Origin: Methanomassiliicoccaceae archaeon COG_1
GTDB lineage: Archaea; Thermoplasmatota; Thermoplasmata; Methanomassiliicoccales; Methanomethylophilaceae
Direction: 5' to 3'
NCBI GenBank assembly: GCA_028561875.1
Contig: JAQQTI010000001.1
Span: 434,001-498,000, forward strand
Length of the DNA: 64,000 nucleotides
Position numbers and translations under genes: made by a program. This document shows positions 1,773 to 60,601 of the stretch, in pieces. The first letter of the stretch is position 1, and the number at the start of each line of letters is the position of its first letter. A model generated the notes under the pieces. The model was given only the letters and a program-made list of their open reading frames with translations, did not search any database and was not told where the DNA came from.

Positions 1773-1953
1773 TGGGCAACACCATTACAGGCATGGTCGA
1801 AAATAAACACCTTAAAAAAACTGATGTCTTATTTCAGACATGAACTGTCGGATGCGTTACGAAAGAGACGAGTATGACGGTTTTGCAACCCCTTATCTCA
1901 GGAGGGACAGGTCATTAGCCAGCATGGGTATAGAGGCCGATTCGTAGAAACAG

Positions 1954-1967
1954 GTCGGATATCCGAC
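1954..1967. repeat. Perfect 14-bp palindrome
   Basis: GTCGGATATCCGAC is its own reverse complement. It lies just downstream of the TAG-terminated 81-residue gene (minus strand). It could be a protein-binding site or an RNA stem at the operon's 3' end. No T-run follows, so a classical terminator is not shown. Confidence 0.4.
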
Positions 1968-1990
1968 AATCGGCGCAGTTTCTCCAGAAG

Positions 1991-2236
1991 CTAAGCCGCA
2001 TCCCTTATGCACTCGGCCCTGTCCGTCTGCGGGAGGTACATGACCTTCCCCTGCGGATACAGGGTGACCTCCCTCCCGTTCCATTCGAAAACTAGGTACA
2101 TGTCCCCCCCCTCCTTGATGATGCAGTCCTCCTTCTCGAGGATTTCCACGGCGCGGCCCATGTCTATGTCCATGGCGTCGACGGAGATCGCCATGAGGGC
2201 CTTCCCACCGCAGAGGCGGGATGTGGTGAACCTCAT
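1991..2236 (-). CDS. Conserved-looking hypothetical protein (81 aa) ending in TAG
   Basis: An 81-residue protein with no recognised family. It contains the acidic stretch AISVDAMDIDMGRAVEI and the C-terminal EVTLYPQGKVMYLP. The ATG at 2236 overlaps the TGA of the upstream kinase-like gene as ATGA, so the two are translationally coupled; archaeal UPF0200 kinases are sometimes paired with a small putative RNA-binding protein. The stop codon is TAG. If amber is sense here, the frame continues 30 more codons to a TGA at 1898-1900. Function is not assigned. Confidence 0.6.
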   Translation of the reverse strand: MRFTTSRLCGGKALMAISVDAMDIDMGRAVEILEKEDCIIKEGGDMYLVFEWNGREVTLYPQGKVMYLPQTDRAECIRDAA

Positions 2237-2760
2237 CTCAGGGACCCCACAAGCCCGGCGGACCTCCTGCGGAAATCCTCCAGGGACCCGGAGTTGTCTA
2301 TCATGAGGTCGCTCAGGGCGATGACCTCGCCGACGCCCCACGAGAGCTCGCGCGCATCTCTGGCCTCGAACTCTTCCACGCTGTGCGGCATATCCTCCCT
2401 CGCCCGCTTCACGAGCCTCTTGTACCTGACCGGGGGCGGTGCGTGCACCGCAACGATGACGGTGTCCCCCAATCCGCGGAACGCCCTCACCTCGTCCATG
2501 CTGCGGCAGCCGTCGACGATGTTCGGCCCGTCGCGCATCCTCTCTAAGGCGCGCCTCGCCCAGATGTCGGCCCCCTGCCTCTCCCTCTCCTTCCCGGCGA
2601 ACTCGCCCATCGAAAGGGTCCGGTCTACCGGGGACCTTCCTGAGTAGAACTCCCTGACCAGGTCCCCCATCCTAACGAACGGAACCCCTGTGGCCCGTCC
2701 GGCAGCCAGGAACTCTTCCTTGCCCGCACCGGGCATGCCGGTGACGACGATCACTCTCAT
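2233..2760 (-). CDS. UPF0200 / dephospho-CoA-kinase-like P-loop protein
   Basis: A 175-residue P-loop nucleotide kinase. It begins MRVIVVTGMPGAGKEEF, with a Walker A motif at residues 8-15, then SMGEFAGKERERQGADIWARR and VDGCRSMDEVRAF, which match the archaeal UPF0200 family. The substrate is not known from sequence. The ATG at 2760 overlaps the pyrI stop as ATGA, and its own stop overlaps the next start in the same way. This makes a tight pyrB-pyrI-kinase-81aa operon. Longer in-frame starts exist but lie inside pyrI and add no conserved sequence. Confidence 0.75.
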   Translation of the reverse strand: MRVIVVTGMPGAGKEEFLAAGRATGVPFVRMGDLVREFYSGRSPVDRTLSMGEFAGKERERQGADIWARRALERMRDGPNIVDGCRSMDEVRAFRGLGDTVIVAVHAPPPVRYKRLVKRAREDMPHSVEEFEARDARELSWGVGEVIALSDLMIDNSGSLEDFRRRSAGLVGSLR

Positions 2761-20666: not shown

Positions 20667-20852
20667 GCCTAAAGTATCCTGGGACTACTATAAAAAGAAT
20701 AGCGATTGGTCGACGGCGGTGCCTGCCCCCTGCCGAATCTCTCTGCGGGGCCGCGAATGCCAGGGCGACTGTGCGAGGGCCGAACGAGGACTTGACCGGT
20801 TTGTTCGCCGGAGAATACAGATCCGACCCCGTCGCCCGACAAAGCTTTCGTA

Positions 20853-32544: not shown

Positions 32545-33585
32545 ATGGACCTATGGTTCGACGGGGCCCTCATGGCCGTCGGCGCGATGCTGATCGACCG
32601 CTACGTGGGGGACGTGTCCAATCGCTATCACCCGCTTCGGTGGATGGGCAACATTCTCGATGCCCTCGACCGGAGGGTATAGGACCGGGAATCCCGGTGG
32701 TGCATCCTGTACGGGCTGCTATCTTACCTCGCGGTGCTCCTGCTCTTCGGCGCGGCCGCTCTGGCGGTCTGCGTCCTTGCGAAATACGGGCTGTCCGGCG
32801 TTCTGGAGTTCGAGGTGTTCGGCAGGACCGGCGACCTCGGGGAGGTCCTGTGGGTGGCCCTGTCCGCCCTGTTCCTCAAGGTCACCTACTCCCTCTTCCT
32901 GTTCCGGAAGCTCTGTCGCCCCATTGAGGCCGACCTCCTCCGCGGCGACCTGGATGCAGCCGCCGACAAGACGCAGATGATGGTGAACCGCAGGACGCGC
33001 GGCATGGACCGCGAGCACATAGCCTCCTCCTGCTGCGAGACGATCTCGGAGAACCTGGTCGACAGTGTCCTCTCCCCCCTGCTCTACTTCGGCCTGCTCG
33101 GCCTCCCCGGGGCGCTGATTTTCCGCTGCACCAACCTCATGGACGCCATGTGGGGGAGGAGGGACGAGAGGTACGAGCGTCTCGGGAAGTTCCCCGCCCG
33201 TCTGGACGACGCGCTGGGGTTCGTCCCTTCGAGGCTGTCCCCCGCATTCGTCTGGCTGGCGGCAAGGCTGTCGCGCATGGAATCGGGGGGGAAGGCGATG
33301 GCCGCCGCGCGGCGCGAGCATGCCAAGACGCCCAGCCCGAACAGTGGCTGGCCCATGGCCGCCTCGGCGGCGGCGATGGGGGTCAGCTTCGAGAAGGCTG
33401 GAGTGTACGTGATGGGGGAGGGGCCGCTGCCCTCCATCGGTGACATCGCCGTGTGCTACCGTCTTATAGAAAGGGCGTCCTTACTGTTCCTCGTAATAGC
33501 GGTCGTCCCGCTAGCGATGCTCTTCGGAATCCACGTCCAGGTGGCCGTCGAGGAGTTCTTCGGCGGACTGATCGGAGTGTGCTGA
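32545..33585 (+). CDS. cbiB: Adenosylcobinamide-phosphate synthase CbiB with one in-frame amber codon
   Basis: Attaches aminopropanol (phosphate) to cobyric acid at the membrane. The frame starts at ATG 32545, one base after the cobD stop. It reads MDLWFDGALMAVG...HPLRWMGNILDALDRRV, meets TAG at codon 46 (32680-32682), then continues without another stop to TGA (346 residues counting the amber). Downstream are CbiB hallmarks: CCETISENLVDSVLSPLLYFGLLG, TNLMDAMWGRRDERYERLGKFPARLDD and several membrane segments. Both sides of the TAG are CbiB-like, and the TAG falls in a variable loop before the first long membrane helix. I infer pyrrolysine read-through rather than a pseudogene. Confidence 0.85.
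32680..32682 (+). other. In-frame TAG (probable pyrrolysine) in cbiB
   Basis: Codon 46 of cbiB, between LDRRV and DRESRWCILYG. The conserved HP.R.MG motif precedes it and the rest of the enzyme follows in the same frame. Confidence 0.7.
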
Positions 33586-38658: not shown

Positions 38659-39252
38659 ATGCGCTCAGACGACACTATTGACAGGGTCCTCGCCAAGCTC
38701 CGTTCCGATGCCAAGGTGTTGGGAGCGTTTCACATGAAGCAGGGCACTCGCCTCAGGGTGGAGGTCGAGGAGTCGGGGATATCCTCGGTCTGCGGTGTGG
38801 AGTACGAGAACCGCAGCCTGCTCGACGACCGCCATAAGGACATCCACATCTGCGTTTTCTCCACCTCGTTCCTGAACGACCCGACCGAATGCCAGGTTGT
38901 CCTCACCGACGAGACCGGCATCATCTACGGCCACGACGTGCCCCGCGGCATGCCGAGGAGCTAGATATCCGACGAGAAGAACGGAGTCTGGGTCTCCGAG
39001 GATTTCATCGTTTACCCGGACATCATGCCGAAGAGCGACCCCCACTTCGTCCTGGTGCCCCACAGCTTCCTCGACCTTGGCGAGACGGAGGGTGTGAAGG
39101 ACGTAACCGCCTACAATCCGGCTATGACCACCGACGAGATCCTGAAGATGGAGTACGGGTTCCCGCTGATGAAGAGGACCACCTCCACGATAATATCCAT
39201 GAACCGCATCCGAATGCCGCCATGGAGGCATAGCCCGACCGATGACCGCTGA
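38659..39252 (+). CDS. Unknown protein A of a tandem paralogue pair, with in-frame amber
   Basis: No known family. The frame begins at ATG 38659 (TATA TTTTATATT, 28 bp upstream), meets TAG as codon 102 and continues to TGA at 39252 (197 residues counting the amber). It is a paralogue of the next gene. Both have VL[GA]A near the N-terminus, a [DR]xHxC segment and VW[VI]S[ED]DF. The distance between the first and last of these is 90 residues in both, so the TAG is opposite an ordinary residue (about Glu98) of the intact copy. This argues for read-through. No membrane segment or signal peptide is seen. Confidence 0.7.
38962..38964 (+). other. In-frame TAG (probable pyrrolysine) in protein A
   Basis: Codon 102, between GMPRS and ISDEKNGVWVSEDF. 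The downstream part aligns with the intact paralogue at 39242. Confidence 0.65.
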
Positions 39253-40473: not shown

Positions 40474-41268
40474 ATGGAGGATCTGGTGGCTGAGGTCTCG
40501 GCCGTGCTGCGGGAGTCAGTCAGGGAATGCGTGGAGGGGAGGGACGTAGCCGTGGCCTTCTCCGGCGGGTTGGACTCCTCCCTCGCCGCCGCGCTCTCCA
40601 AGGAGTATGCCAGGTCCCTGCGCCTTTACGTCGCCGGGACGGAGGGCAGCTGGGATGTGGAGGCCGCGCGGTCCGCCGCCGGAATCATCGGCGCCGAACT
40701 TGCCGTGGCGGAGATATCCCCGGACACCCTCATCGGGGAGCTCGGGGACTCAATGTCCGTCACCGGGACGACCAGCCCTCTCATACTGGCCTTCGAGTTC
40801 CCGCTGTACAAGGTCATGAAGGCCTGCGCCGAGGGCGACGTCATCGGCGGACAGGGCGCCGACGAGCTGTTCGTCGGATACGCGAAATACAGGGGGGCGG
40901 ACCCTGCCTTCCTCGCCCCGCGGCGGCGGGAGGACCTGCGTCGCCTGAAACGGGACGTCCTCCCCCACGAAGCGGCGCTGGCAGCCAACTTCGGGAAGAC
41001 CATGCACCACCCCTACCTGCGGGAGGACCTGGAACGTCTGGTCATGAGCGCACCCCTGGGCGAGATTGACCCGGCCAACGACGCCGGGAAGCCGGTCCTG
41101 AGGGCGGTGGCGGAGGAGCTCGGCTACGGGGCCCTGGCCAAGCGCCCTAAGAAGGCCGCGCAGTACGGCTCCGGCCTCATGGACGCGATAAACGGGATAT
41201 GCCGGGAGAGGGGGGTCAAGTACAACGCCCTCATCTCCAGCCTGCTGGTGCCACGGACCGAGCATTGA
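40474..41268 (+). CDS. Asparagine synthase-like ATP pyrophosphatase
   Basis: A 264-residue protein carrying only the synthetase half of AsnB-type enzymes. The PP-loop VAFSGGLDSSLAAAL (SGGLDSS 30-36) and GGQGADELFVGYAKY are conserved, but no N-terminal glutaminase exists. Stand-alone forms in archaea are not functionally settled; amidation or another adenylation reaction is possible. A TATA-like GCTTTAAT lies near 40443-40450. The folC start overlaps its stop. Confidence 0.8.
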   Translation: MEDLVAEVSAVLRESVRECVEGRDVAVAFSGGLDSSLAAALSKEYARSLRLYVAGTEGSWDVEAARSAAGIIGAELAVAEISPDTLIGELGDSMSVTGTTSPLILAFEFPLYKVMKACAEGDVIGGQGADELFVGYAKYRGADPAFLAPRRREDLRRLKRDVLPHEAALAANFGKTMHHPYLREDLERLVMSAPLGEIDPANDAGKPVLRAVAEELGYGALAKRPKKAAQYGSGLMDAINGICRERGVKYNALISSLLVPRTEH

Positions 41269-42569
41269 ATAAGGGCGCGCCCATATCGGCGCACGTGAAT
41301 CCGGAGTGTGCCCCCGTGGGGGACTTGGAATGGCTGTACGGCCTGCAGATGCGGGGCGTGAAGCTCGGCCTGACAAACGTGACCGAACTGCTGCGGAGGA
41401 TGGGGGACCCCCACCGCTCGTTCCCCTGCATTCACGTCGCCGGCAGCGACGGCAAGGGGTCGACGTGCGCCATCCTCGCCTCCGTCCTCCGCGCGTCTGG
41501 TATGAGGGTAGGGCTGTACACCTCGCCCCACATCCTCGCATTCAACGAGCGCATCGATGTGGGCGGGGAGAAGATATCCGACGCGGAGATGGCGGATATC
41601 GTCCCCTCGATACGGGGCATAGCCGAGGGCATGCGGGGGGAGGGCATGGGATGCACCTTCTTCGAGGCGACCACCGCCCTGGCGTTCGAGCATTTCAGGA
41701 GGAGGGAGGTGGACGTGGCCGTAATCGAGGTGGGCATGGGCGGGAGGCTCGACGCGACGAACGTCGTGACCCCGCTGGTGAGCGTGATCAGCAACATCAG
41801 TCTCGAGCACCGGGAGCACCTCGGGGCGACCATCGAGGAGATCGCCCTCGAGAAGGCGGGGATAATCAAGCCAGGCGTCCCGGTGGTGACGATCAACCCC
41901 GAGCCCGCCTTCGGTGTGATCGCGAGGGCTGCGGAAGAGAGGGGTTCGAGGCTGGTCCGTCTCCGTGCCGAGGACGTCGAGGTGGTGGAGAACACGTGGC
42001 GCGGCCCTCGTTTCAGGCTGCGCGGGGAGGAGTTCTCCGTATCCGTCCCCGGGAGGTTCGAAGCGGAGGACGCCGCCCTCGCGATTACCGCCCTGAGGCA
42101 GCTACCCGGCTACGGGGAAAGGATAGAGCCCCACCTGAGGGAGGGGCTGGAGAGCGTATCCTGGCCTTGCCGCATGCAGAGGGTCGGCGACAGGGTGGTC
42201 GTCGACGTAACCCACACCGAGGCGGGGTCCGAGGGGCTGGCGCGCGACATCGCGGAGATCTACGGCAAGGTCGTGCTCGTGTTCGGTGTGCTTTCCGACA
42301 AGGACGCCGACGGGATGTGCAGGAACCTCGCACACATCGCGTCGCGCGCGGTCGCCACCGCGCCGCTCGCCCCACGTGCGAGGGCCGTGGCGGAGACGCT
42401 CGGGATCATGAGGAGGTACATGCCCGATGCCGAGTCCGCGCCCACCGTCGCCGCCGCGATAACACGCGCGCTGGATATCGCGCTGCCGGGAGAGACGGTC
42501 CTGGTCACGGGGTCGTTCCACATGGCGGAGGAGGCGCTGAGGTGGCGGGCGAGATCGTCAACGTACTGA
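41265..42569 (+). CDS. folC: Folylpolyglutamate synthase / dihydrofolate synthase-like FolC
   Basis: Mur-ligase family enzyme adding glutamate to a pterin cofactor. HVAGSDGKGSTCAILASVL is the ATP loop, followed by VGLYTSPHILAFNERI, VIEVGMGGRLDATNVV, ISNISLEHREHLG, EKAGIIKPGVPVV and a C-terminal LVFGVLSDKDADGM. The start is taken at TTG 41265, which overlaps the upstream TGA as TTGA (434 residues); a GTG at 41295 is possible. The 3' end overlaps the nth start by 28 bp. In a methanogen the substrate may be a folate or a related pterin. Confidence 0.88.
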   Translation: MNKGAPISAHVNPECAPVGDLEWLYGLQMRGVKLGLTNVTELLRRMGDPHRSFPCIHVAGSDGKGSTCAILASVLRASGMRVGLYTSPHILAFNERIDVGGEKISDAEMADIVPSIRGIAEGMRGEGMGCTFFEATTALAFEHFRRREVDVAVIEVGMGGRLDATNVVTPLVSVISNISLEHREHLGATIEEIALEKAGIIKPGVPVVTINPEPAFGVIARAAEERGSRLVRLRAEDVEVVENTWRGPRFRLRGEEFSVSVPGRFEAEDAALAITALRQLPGYGERIEPHLREGLESVSWPCRMQRVGDRVVVDVTHTEAGSEGLARDIAEIYGKVVLVFGVLSDKDADGMCRNLAHIASRAVATAPLAPRARAVAETLGIMRRYMPDAESAPTVAAAITRALDIALPGETVLVTGSFHMAEEALRWRARSSTY

Positions 42570-43267
42570 ACATCCTGCGGGAGGAGTACAGGGGTGTGGG
42601 CGTGCAGCCCGGCCACTCCTCGGAGGGGCTGGACCCGAAGTGGCCACAGGATCCGTTCCATGTGCTGGTCGCCACCATCCTCTCGCAGAGGACGAGGGAC
42701 GACAACACGCGCAAGGCATCGGACGCGCTGTTCGGGAGGTATCCTACGCTGGACGCATTGGCCGATGCCGACCTCTCGGTGGTGGAGGAACTCATCCGCC
42801 CCGCGGGGTTCCCGAAGCAGAAGGCGAAGGGCGTCGTATCCTGCTGCCGGGAGATCCGCGACGTGTACGGCGGGGAGGTGCCAAGGGATACCGAATAGCT
42901 AGTCAAGCTCCCCTGGGTGGGCAGGAAGACCGCCGCCTGCGTGCGCACCTACGCCATGGGTCTCCCGTCGGTCTGCGTCGACACCCATGTACACCGCATA
43001 TCGAATCTTATGGGCCTGGTGCGCACGAACACGCCGGAGGAGACGGAGTACGCCCTGATGGGGATTACCCCAGAGGGCCTCTGGGGAGACATCAACCGCT
43101 ACTTCGTGAGGCACGGGCAGGTGGTCTGCGTACCGAACCACATGCGTTGCGGAAGGTGCGCTGTGAGAGAGCACTGTGACCACTGGAGGGGGAAACACCG
43201 ACATTGCCACCAGGCCATCGGTGCAACGAGTTCCAGTCATCGCTGCTCGTCGGTTTTCTCCCGTTGA
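42542..43267 (+). CDS. nth: Endonuclease III (Nth) with one in-frame amber codon
   Basis: DNA glycosylase/AP lyase for oxidised pyrimidines. The frame starts at GTG 42542 (MAGEIVNVLNILREEY), includes DPFHVLVATILSQRTRDDNT, meets TAG as codon 119 (42896-42898) and continues to TGA (241 residues). After the TAG come the helix-hairpin-helix LVKLPWVGRKTA with catalytic Lys, VDTHVHRISN with catalytic Asp, and the [4Fe-4S] motif C-x6-C-x2-C-x5-C (CVPNHMRCGRCAVREHC). Everything essential lies beyond the TAG and remains intact, so read-through as pyrrolysine is the best explanation. The TAG aligns with the variable residue before L.xLPGVGRKTA. Confidence 0.88.
42896..42898 (+). other. In-frame TAG (probable pyrrolysine) in nth
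   Basis: Codon 119, between EVPRDTE and LVKLPWVGRKTA. No other stop occurs in the frame until 43267. Confidence 0.75.
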
Positions 43268-44903: not shown

Positions 44904-45772
44904 AGCCGAAGGCGCATCCTCTGGCGCCGACTCTGGTGCTAGTCATAACCAACGATTCAGCGGTGTTTCTCCGGAGCGGCATAGCCAGCGCCTTCGAGAT
45001 GTTCGGGGGCAGGATGGAGGAGGTCAAGCGTCTAGTGGCGAGGCTGGATCTCGCCAAGAAGGCAGACGGAACCAAGCTCTGCGAGGTCTCCTTCGGCGTG
45101 GTCTCCAGTCGCTTCGGCTACGTACCCGCCGATTACACTGTCGCGCCCTATCCCGCCGAGGAGGTCATGAAGGATGCGGAGGGCTACCGCCGTGTGCAGG
45201 CCGAGAAGGACTACCTCAGCAGCATCTGTTACACGTCGAAGATGTTTGACCGCATCATACTCTGCGTGCCGAAGGACATGGCGAGGATGATCATGGAGGC
45301 CGGCGCGCTGCCGGACGGGAGGGTCATCGCAGTCACCAGCCCGGAACTCCGCAGGGAGTGCGAGGAACGCGGCTGGCTGTTCCTGGAGAGGAGGGGCGCG
45401 CGGGTCGGCAGGGAGAACACCGACCGCATCATGGAGGAGATACGCGACATCTCACGAGAGGGACCCGAGCCTCGCCTTCAGACGGGCCTTGTCCTCCGCC
45501 GGTACGCGGTAGGAGTCGCGGATCTTCCCGACGGTCATGCGGAGGGTTTCGAGAGGGAGAGAGCCGGAGAACGCCGCCTCCTCCGTTTTCTCGGGATATC
45601 TGATGTAGCACACCGACAGCGCCCATGCCGCGCCCATGCGGTAGGGGCGCTCCGGGCTGTCGTGCGAGGTAAGGGCCCCCAGGATGCCGTCGATGTGCCC
45701 GTCGTCGACGAAGTGCGCAAGCATCATCACGGCGCATACCCTCATGGGGAACCCCTCACCGGTTTCGATTAG
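44900..45772 (+). CDS. Unknown protein downstream of hypD, tail antisense to AlkD-like gene
   Basis: Starts at TTG 44900 overlapping the hypD stop. The first ~185 residues look like a genuine soluble protein (LVLVITNDSAVFLRSGIASAFEMFGG, VSSRFGYVPADYTVAPYPAEEV, FDRIILCVPKDMARMIMEAG), but I recognise no family. From about 45452 the frame is antisense to the AlkD-like gene and ends at TAG (45770-45772). The real C-terminus is probably near RIMEEIRDISREG, yet no stop is found there. Co-occurrence with hypA and hypD may be accidental. Confidence 0.55.
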   Translation: MKPKAHPLAPTLVLVITNDSAVFLRSGIASAFEMFGGRMEEVKRLVARLDLAKKADGTKLCEVSFGVVSSRFGYVPADYTVAPYPAEEVMKDAEGYRRVQAEKDYLSSICYTSKMFDRIILCVPKDMARMIMEAGALPDGRVIAVTSPELRRECEERGWLFLERRGARVGRENTDRIMEEIRDISREGPEPRLQTGLVLRRYAVGVADLPDGHAEGFERERAGERRLLRFLGISDVAHRQRPCRAHAVGALRAVVRGKGPQDAVDVPVVDEVRKHHHGAYPHGEPLTGFD

Positions 45773-57604: not shown

Positions 57605-59014
57605 ATGACAGCGAAAGAATTCTACACCAGGATGGGTGACGGCAAGAGGGTCACCATGACCCGCGAGAAGATCATGGACGACCTTCAGGCCGGAGCCGCC
57701 GACGCCGCTGACATGGGGGCCATCCCCCAGATCAGCGACGATGACCTCGAGCGCCTCGCGGACATAATCTGCGACCCCAACAGGGCCGTGTCCGTTGAGC
57801 CCGGGAACGAGGTCGTCCTCACGTACGATATCGGGCAGCTCGATTTCACCGGCGACAACGGCAACTCCGGCGCCGGCGTCGACATGGGCAGACTCGAGGC
57901 CGCCCTCCTCCACGAGAGGGCGCTCGGTTCCGACACCTTCGAACTCGCGCACTCCGACTACTCCATCAAGCCGGTCAAGCCGGTCATCGCGATGGAGATG
58001 CAAACGATGGAGGAGATTCAACAGGAGATCATCATCCCCTACTTCTACGGCGCGATGCCCAACATGGGCCTTTACTATGCTCCGGACGGGCCGTACGGCA
58101 ATCCCGCAGACCTCATGAGGGAGTTCAAAATCGACGAGTCCATGGAGCAGTCCGAGAAGGCCGCCTCCCATCTTGCCAGGGACATCGAGTACGTCGGGAA
58201 CAAGATTTACGCCGCCAGCGCGGACGGTTTCGACTTCGACACCATCGCCTCCGCCGGCGACGCCGACTTCGTCGGGTCCCTCAACGGGATCGAGGCCCTC
58301 AGGAAGGCCAACCCCCAGATGTACATCAACTCCGGCATGTCCGGCGAGTCCGTCATGGGGATCCATGGCGCAATCGAGTACAAGGGCAACGTCGTGGCGG
58401 GAATGTTCCCGCACCAGCAGGTCAAGATGTGCGAGATGGCCGGAGCCAATGTGTTCGGCGCCGTCTGCAACACGAATACCAGCAAGAGCCTCGCCTGGAA
58501 CATGGGCAGGGCCGTCACCTTCGTCAAGGAGTGCGTCAAGCAGGCGAGCATACCGGTCCACTGCGACCTCGGAATGGGCGTCGGGGGAATTCCGATGTTC
58601 GAGACCCCGCCGGTAGATGCGGTCACCCGGTGCTCCAAGGCGATGGTCGAGATCGCGCACGTCGACGGCGTATAGATCGGAGTGGGCGACCCCATCGGAA
58701 TGGACGTCGCTCACTTCATGGCCTCCTCCATGGGCGGAATCAGGACCGCCGGCGACATGGTCGCTCGCATGGAATACGCCAAGAACATGAAGATCGGACC
58801 TGCCAAGGAGTACGTTGCCAAGAAGCTGGGCATATCCACCCTCGACATCGCCGACGAGCACATCATGAGGGAGCTCCGCGAGGAGATGAAACTCGGCGTC
58901 GTCACGGGAGTCCCCAATGCCCCCCGGGGCATCGCTGCCAAGATGAACCTCGAGAAGCTACTGGATATCAAGATCAACAGCTGCGAGAAGTTCAGGCAGA
59001 GCCTTAGGAGCTGA
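57605..59014 (+). CDS. mtbB: Dimethylamine methyltransferase MtbB (pyrrolysine protein)
   Basis: Transfers a methyl group from dimethylamine to MtbC. The frame has 469 residues including an in-frame TAG at codon 357 (58673-58675), between EIAHVDGV and [10 protein letters not shown]. This matches the known pyrrolysine position of Mtb[31 protein letters not shown] lies before it and [22 protein letters not shown] after it. It has a GAGGGAAAG ribosome-binding site. Read literally with TAG as stop it would be cut at 356 residues and inactive. Confidence 0.97.
58673..58675 (+). other. Pyrrolysine codon of mtbB
   Basis: TAG codon 357 at the expected catalytic position of the DMA methyltransferase family. 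Confidence 0.93.
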
Positions 59015-59071: not shown

Positions 59072-60601
59072 ATGGGAACAACAACGCCCCTTTATCCGGC
59101 TCAGACTCAGTTGAACGGCATCAAGTTCGACCTGTTCACCGACGACGAGATCCGCAGGATCGACATGGCTACCAGGGATGTCCTGGAATTCTATGGCGTA
59201 CAGGTCACCGACCTCAAGGCCTGCAAAATCTTCGAGGACGCCGGTTGCACCGTCGAAGAGATTCCTGGAAACAAAAGCGCGAAGATGGTCAAGATTCCCG
59301 GATACATTCTTGACAGGGCGCTCGCCACCTGCCCCAAGAAGTTCTACCTCTACGGGCGCGACGAGAAGAGGACCTTCACCCAGGAATGGAAGGGCAAGGT
59401 CCACTACACCTGCTTCGGAACCGGCATCCAGGTCTGCGACTACAAGGGCCACGGCAAGTACGAGACCAGGGACTCCAACGAGGACGACCTCGCCAAGATC
59501 GCCAAGCTCTGCGATTGGTGCGAAGGCCTCAGCTACTTCTCCCTCCCAGTTTCCGCGAGGAACTGGGCCGGGAAGGGCGCCGAGGACGTCCACGAGCTCC
59601 TCGTTTCGCTCTCCAACACCACCATGCACTTCCACCACATCGATCCCGTCGCGGCCAACGTCCCCTTCTACAGGGATTTCGTCCTCGCCTACTACCGCGG
59701 GGACAAGAAGGCCGCCTTCGAGAAGCCGATCATGTCCATGCTCGTCTGCCCGACCTCTCCGCTGGAGCTCTCCTTCAACGCCGCGGAGTGCATCATGCAG
59801 GGTGCCGAGTTCGGCATTCCCGTGAACGTCCTGTCCATGGCCATGGCCGGCGGGTCGTCCTCAGTCTTCCTCGCCGGGACCCTCGTCACCCACAACGCCG
59901 AGATCCTCTCGGGAATCGTCCTTTCGCAGCTCGTCAGGCCGGGGGCGAGGGTATGGTACGGGTCCTCCACCACCACCTTCGACCTCAAGAGGGGCACCGC
60001 TCCCGTCGGGTCCCCCGAGCTCGGACTCATCAGCGCGGCCGTTGCGAAGCTCGGGCAGTACTACAAGCTCCCCGTCTTCACCGCCGGCATGTAGACCGAC
60101 GCCAAGGTGCCCGACGGACAGGCCGGTCACGAGAAGACCATCACCTCGTTCTGCGCGGCGCTCGCTGGCGTCAACATGATCTACGGCTCCGGGATGCTGG
60201 AGCTCGGAATGACCTTCTCCCTCGAGCAGATGGTCATCGACAACGACATCATCAGGATGGAGAGGAAGTCCATGGAGGGCATCCCCGTTAACGACGAGAC
60301 CCTCGCCGTCGAGGCCACCAAGGAGATCGGAGTCGGCAACGACTTCATAGCCCACCCCTCCACCATGGAGAACATAGACCTCGCTTCCGATCCGGTCGTC
60401 TTCGACAGGCTCATGCTCGGCGACTGGAGGAACAACGGCTACAAGGACGCCGCCGAAGTCGCCCACGACATAGTCGAAGACGTCCTGAAGAACCATACCG
60501 TTGCTCCCGTCCCCGAGGACATCGTGGCCGAGTGGAAGAAGATCACCGAGAAGGCGGACCAGGCCTACCTCAAGAAGGCTGCCGCCGAGGAGAACGAGTA
60601 A
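59072..60601 (+). CDS. mttB: Trimethylamine methyltransferase MttB (pyrrolysine protein)
   Basis: Demethylates trimethylamine and loads MttC. The frame has 509 residues with TAG at codon 341 (60092-60094), between LPVFTAGM and [15 protein letters not shown], the known Pyl site of Mtt[38 protein letters not shown] and [30 protein letters not shown] are typical. A GAGAGGA site precedes the ATG. It is positioned between mtbB and mttC in one operon. Confidence 0.97.
60092..60094 (+). other. Pyrrolysine codon of mttB
   Basis: TAG codon 341, in the conserved FTAGM-Pyl-TDAK context of TMA methyltransferases. Confidence 0.93.

Follow-up and report, generated by a model that had tools for sequence, protein, structure and literature searches.

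A probable pyrrolysine codon in the endonuclease III gene of a Methanomassiliicoccales archaeon

Introduction

'Pyl code' archaea, in which all TAG codons are read as pyrrolysine (Pyl), have reportedly been described by Kivenson et al. in Science in 2025. In the order Methanomassiliicoccales, 'Ca. Methanomethylophilus alvus' uses TAG for 1.6% of its stops and carries 16 non-methyltransferase genes with an in-frame TAG (Borrel et al. 2014, PMC4153887); according to the available text of that study, homologues without the TAG exist for half of these genes, which include Cas1 and a lipid-synthesis enzyme. In ISO4-H5, the available text reports in-frame amber codons in 46 genes, among them those for adenylate kinase, a sugar-phosphate isomerase and geranylgeranyl reductases (PMC5011839). 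Outside this order, Pyl was physically observed in Thg1 of Methanosarcina acetivorans, where, in the account available, it is not essential for activity (Heinemann et al. 2009, via PMC2933860).

Here we analyse an in-frame TAG in nth, the endonuclease III gene of a Methanomassiliicoccales archaeon. The genome resembles that of M. alvus in belonging to the same order, in the rarity of TAG as a stop and in the route proposed, by which a change is first tolerated and then depended upon, but nth, pheS, gatA, thiL and cbiB are not named as Pyl proteins in the available text on M. alvus (PMC4153887). As in ISO4-H5, housekeeping proteins are affected, although the genes differ and the available text on ISO4-H5 names no essential translation factor (PMC5011839). 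The nth case is most like Thg1, with a single-species TAG of neutral appearance in a conserved housekeeping gene, except that Pyl in Thg1 was shown experimentally (PMC2933860, in the part available), whereas the home nth is known from its sequence alone. Since Pyl outside the methyltransferases has already been reported for the order in the available texts (PMC4153887, PMC5011839), nth is a further example.

Results

The home genome is a Methanomassiliicoccales MAG from a gut-type methane-making archaeon, with its nearest relatives in the Methanomethylophilaceae, and its assembly (6 contigs, 1.51 Mb) is estimated to be 86% complete. In such assemblies standard gene calling cuts TAG-bearing genes short, and these truncated calls may also be part of the reason for the completeness estimate. 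The window, the whole stretch of 64,000 nucleotides that was analysed, corresponds to C1:434001-498000. With TAG taken as sense, translation and profile matches define nth as a gene of 241 codons on the forward strand (42542..43267), with a GTG start preceded by GGAGG 7 nt upstream (42530-42534) and overlapping by 28 nt the end of an intact Mur-ligase/FolC-type gene (41199..42569, forward strand). The frame is open throughout and ends in TGA, apart from one TAG at codon 119 (42896..42898, forward strand), which bears out the original prediction of an endonuclease III gene interrupted by a single amber codon. When 147 genomes of the order were searched for nth, the home assembly gave one match, the one with the internal TAG, and no second, intact nth; the one other HhH-GPD protein in this assembly is an OGG1-type glycosylase.

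The read-through protein matches PF00730 (HhH-GPD) at residues 43-177 (E 3.4e-22; 79 bits, cut-off 26) and the nth model TIGR01083 at residues 36-203 (E 4.3e-48), where the home sequence, the one that was scored, reaches 163.5 bits and so falls below the equivalog cut-off of 211.7. Because it lies below this NCBIfam cut-off we name the protein Nth-family, on the grounds of fold, motifs and best-model rank, and do not file it as the equivalog. The functional elements that had been predicted around and after the TAG were all located: the helix-hairpin-helix (HhH) with the catalytic Lys129 (42890..42958, forward strand; predicted helices 117-120 and 128-139), the catalytic Asp at codon 147 (42980..42982, forward strand) and the C-x6-C-x2-C-x5-C ligands of the iron-sulfur cluster at codons 196-212 (43127..43177, forward strand). 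In an alignment of 18 sequences, the home Nth and 17 relatives, Lys129, Asp147 and the cysteines C196, C203 and C206 are invariant and C212 is almost so, and all six residues are encoded 3' of the TAG. An alignment-based structure model (pLDDT 86.6) matches the endonuclease III structures 1p59, 1orn and 2abk with TM scores of 0.88-0.89 by target length. The home Nth shares with these enzymes the HhH-GPD fold, the catalytic Lys and Asp and the 4Fe-4S cysteines, and differs from them in the predicted Pyl, which the model places in helix 117-120, the short helix that opens the HhH motif, outside the catalytic residues.

The TAG lies, as predicted, at a variable position. No stop is present at this site in any of the 109 homologues that cover it, and ten residue types occur there (E, D, T, A, V, I, K, S, M and R), with Glu, encoded by GAG or GAA, in 82 of the 109, of which 61 have GAG; the relatives with names come from assemblies of Methanomethylophilaceae and Methanomassiliicoccales. 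Since none of the relatives shows a stop here, the TAG is a recent, lineage-specific change, one base from the commonest codon of the relatives. The conserved or functionally required UAG position of MtmB, MtbB and MttB has no counterpart in nth, where the site is variable and TAG is found in 0/109 relatives. In this respect the nth TAG resembles the neutral Thg1-type case, and a conserved UAG marks the methyltransferase kind of Pyl protein, not every Pyl protein.

A TAG confined to the home species is also what would be expected of a recent nonsense mutation that stops translation, so that nth is lost but too young to have decayed, and nth is dispensable in many organisms. The sequence beyond the TAG bears on this alternative. 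Collinear homology runs for about 95 residues past the TAG, beyond chance, and no further stop or lesion is found in nth, with homology on both sides. Compared with its counterpart in a congener whose assembly is a single contig, the whole protein shows 68% identity, and across 68 relatives its identity is 63% before the TAG and 73% after it. The resulting gap (0.10) is not smaller than that of intact homologues (mean 0.07), and therefore the downstream half is not relaxed and is as conserved as in those homologues. Near-invariant columns are departed from at 1/42 positions before the TAG and at 2/49 after it. Two unusual residues count against the Pyl reading: Leu180, and Trp125, where almost every relative has Met. 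Beside the TAG, at 42893-42916, a GAA codon, the rare codon CTA and Trp125 differ from the relatives; these flanking departures possibly represent local compensation, or chance. The absence of decay marks distinguishes nth from the true remnants of this genome, which have mixed stops and a lost frame.

A complete set of pyl genes is present in the genome, as the original prediction invited one to verify. The gene pylT, for a tRNA-Pyl with anticodon CUA (C1:503380), is followed by pylS, pylC and pylD (C1:503380-506344), 5 kb past the window, and pylB lies apart from them at C4:61940. PylB and PylS score above their family cut-offs, and pylC and pylD were identified from their sequence and from their location following pylS, not by family search. 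These genes also bear on whether UAG might be read by near-cognate readthrough or by another suppressor tRNA, giving a standard residue. The list of 43 tRNA matches is incomplete, with a few tRNAs unresolved and the expected Trp, Tyr and Ile tRNAs not seen, which leaves some room for another decoder; within it, tRNA-Pyl is the only CUA tRNA, and with the full pyl set at hand we regard this alternative as extremely unlikely. The pylS gene itself appears to end in TAG (C1:504352-504354), overlapping the pylC start, and the following stop in frame, also TAG, comes 43 codons later. The first TAG may be a genuine stop, or may permit PylS to be extended in a feedback response to abundant Pyl. In the sister species pylS appears to end in TGA.

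The window holds two positive controls on the forward strand, the dimethylamine methyltransferase gene mtbB (57605..59014) with its canonical Pyl TAG at codon 357 (58673-58675) and the trimethylamine methyltransferase gene mttB (59111..60601) with its own at codon 328 (60092-60094), and decoding of UAG in these genes argues against the nonsense alternative for nth. Three other genes of the window have an in-frame TAG. In cbiB (adenosylcobinamide-phosphate synthase, 32545..33585, forward strand), present as a sole copy, the single TAG is codon 46 (32680-32682), and among the matches listed from the 147 genomes searched no other genome of the order has an internal stop in this gene. A conserved gene of unknown family (38659..39252, forward strand) has a TAG at 38962-38964, where a relative has Ser, and a small conserved protein (1898..2341, reverse strand) has one near its C-terminus (1993-1991), where a relative has Ala. 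Two TAGs at 20687-20690 were rejected as lying upstream of a gene start and not within a gene, and an apparent TAG at 45120 on the reverse strand as antisense.

For stop usage, scored genes were compared between stretches totalling 850 kb in the home genome and 1.2 Mb in a sister species, over about 437 kb of aligned coding sequence. First comparisons of all ORFs, swamped by the antisense ORFs of a GC-rich genome, were replaced by this one with a strand filter. A test on composition only, which sought coding-like flanks on both sides of a stop, did not discriminate (TAA 21, TGA 60, TAG 17) because neighbouring genes fuse. Counting cellular genes only, with methylamine methyltransferases and decayed remnants left out, we found 8 TAG, 0 TAA and 0 TGA as clean internal stops, the TAGs being in nth, cbiB, thiL, a GT4 glycosyltransferase, a Sel1 protein, a DUF4143 ATPase and the 38962 and 1993 genes. 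On codon usage TAG makes up 63% of one-step nonsense changes, so that eight of eight has P ~0.03; the test is weaker than it appears because GAG and AAG are common codons, and the ratio by itself is weak evidence, being only mildly skewed against nonsense mutation. Mixed stops occur in the aligned part only in decayed material, namely a transposase-like gene (C1:166419), a PPIase-like remnant (C1:276470) and a fragment at 602.8 kb (C1:602806), which are real remnants with a lost frame. The internal TAA at C1:166419, considered as a counter-example, was set aside because the gene, which from its sequence we take to be a transposase, has broken ends.

Gene ends supported by homologues comprise 242 TGA, 34 TAA and 10 TAG, and of the last, five are methyltransferase codons or belong to the 1993 gene and others are doubtful, leaving about 1-2%. 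As TAG apparently still ends some genes, including pylS, UAG appears to be mainly sense and not fully reassigned. The genome is similar in its predicted genome-wide use of TAG as Pyl to the 'Pyl code' archaea, and differs from them in these apparent TAG ends. In the sister species (G034), in-frame TAGs are found in other genes than in the home genome, a primase-large-subunit-like gene and an OGG1-type glycosylase gene (L142:3909 and L177:11948).

A look at TAG alone, outside the stop-type ratio, added hsdR, gatA and pheS. Both gatA (C1:299167-300495, reverse strand; TAG at codon 242 of 442, Lys or Arg in 13 congeners) and pheS (C1:327375-328910, forward strand; TAG at codon 65 of 511, Ser, Lys or Arg in six relatives) are sole copies, full length, collinear and about 69-76% identical to relatives, and neither has a further stop besides its one TAG. 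Among the matches listed from the 147 genomes, the internal TAG of pheS is found in the home genome only. PheRS is essential. A shortened PheS starting after codon 65 is conceivable, but reinitiation of this kind would not be expected to save gatA. These two TAGs are not readily explained by nonsense decay and are the strongest evidence, coming from outside nth itself: at least some of these genes require translation of TAG, for which tRNA-Pyl is the obvious agent. The original prediction had argued that a core enzyme would be lost if TAG ended translation, an argument that carries little weight for nth by itself, a gene that is often dispensable, and is much stronger for gatA and pheS. With equivalent TAGs in these single-copy genes, we judge a recent nonsense mutation in nth to be improbable.

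A single TAA lies inside the pheS match of two assemblies of the family (G111:C81:14442-15920 and G065:C66:4006-5487), perhaps owing to sequence errors or alignment ends. Such cases, together with the one-base distance of the nth TAG from the commonest codon of the relatives, are in favour of an error in one base, or an artefact of assembly, having turned GAG (Glu) into TAG in this metagenome-type assembly. Error of this kind would have to explain why independent TAGs recur in many genes that are intact in other respects, and why cellular genes show no clean TAA or TGA. The assembly reaches 1.5 Mb in 6 contigs, and in its aligned part frameshift candidates number only three, a remnant among them. 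We consider it quite improbable.

Discussion

The nth UAG is, in our assessment, very probably a sense codon read as pyrrolysine, which would give full-length endonuclease III after drift away from Glu. The pyl set, the single nth and the sense codons of the relatives support, at the level of sequence, the proposal that Pyl occurs in a housekeeping protein and not just in methyltransferases. PylB, PylC and PylD would make pyrrolysine, PylS would load it onto tRNA-Pyl (CUA), and its insertion at residue 119 would yield the 241-residue enzyme; this insertion, its efficiency and the activity of Nth are what we infer from the gene. The Glu codon was presumably lost by one G-to-T change, from GAG to TAG, and the variability of the position, together with routine suppression of UAG in the lineage, would have allowed the change to be tolerated. 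With routine suppression by Pyl-tRNA, new in-frame TAGs would be nearly neutral at tolerant positions, and could accumulate, as has been put forward for 'Ca. M. alvus' (PMC4153887).

Less ordinary, and worth following, is the dependence on Pyl that would extend to PheRS alpha and GatA. We lean, with some reserve, towards the view that Pyl is obligatory for basic protein synthesis in this organism: both single-copy proteins would be completed only with UAG decoding, the whole cell would depend on the Pyl machinery, and nth would be one of many neutral captures. In this way nth adds a base-excision-repair enzyme to the proteins that likely contain the 22nd amino acid, acquired by drift and not for its chemistry, and the pheS and gatA TAGs suggest a way for an expanded code to lock itself in: from the moment that core translation genes required UAG decoding, loss of the pyl genes would be barred even where methylamines are absent.
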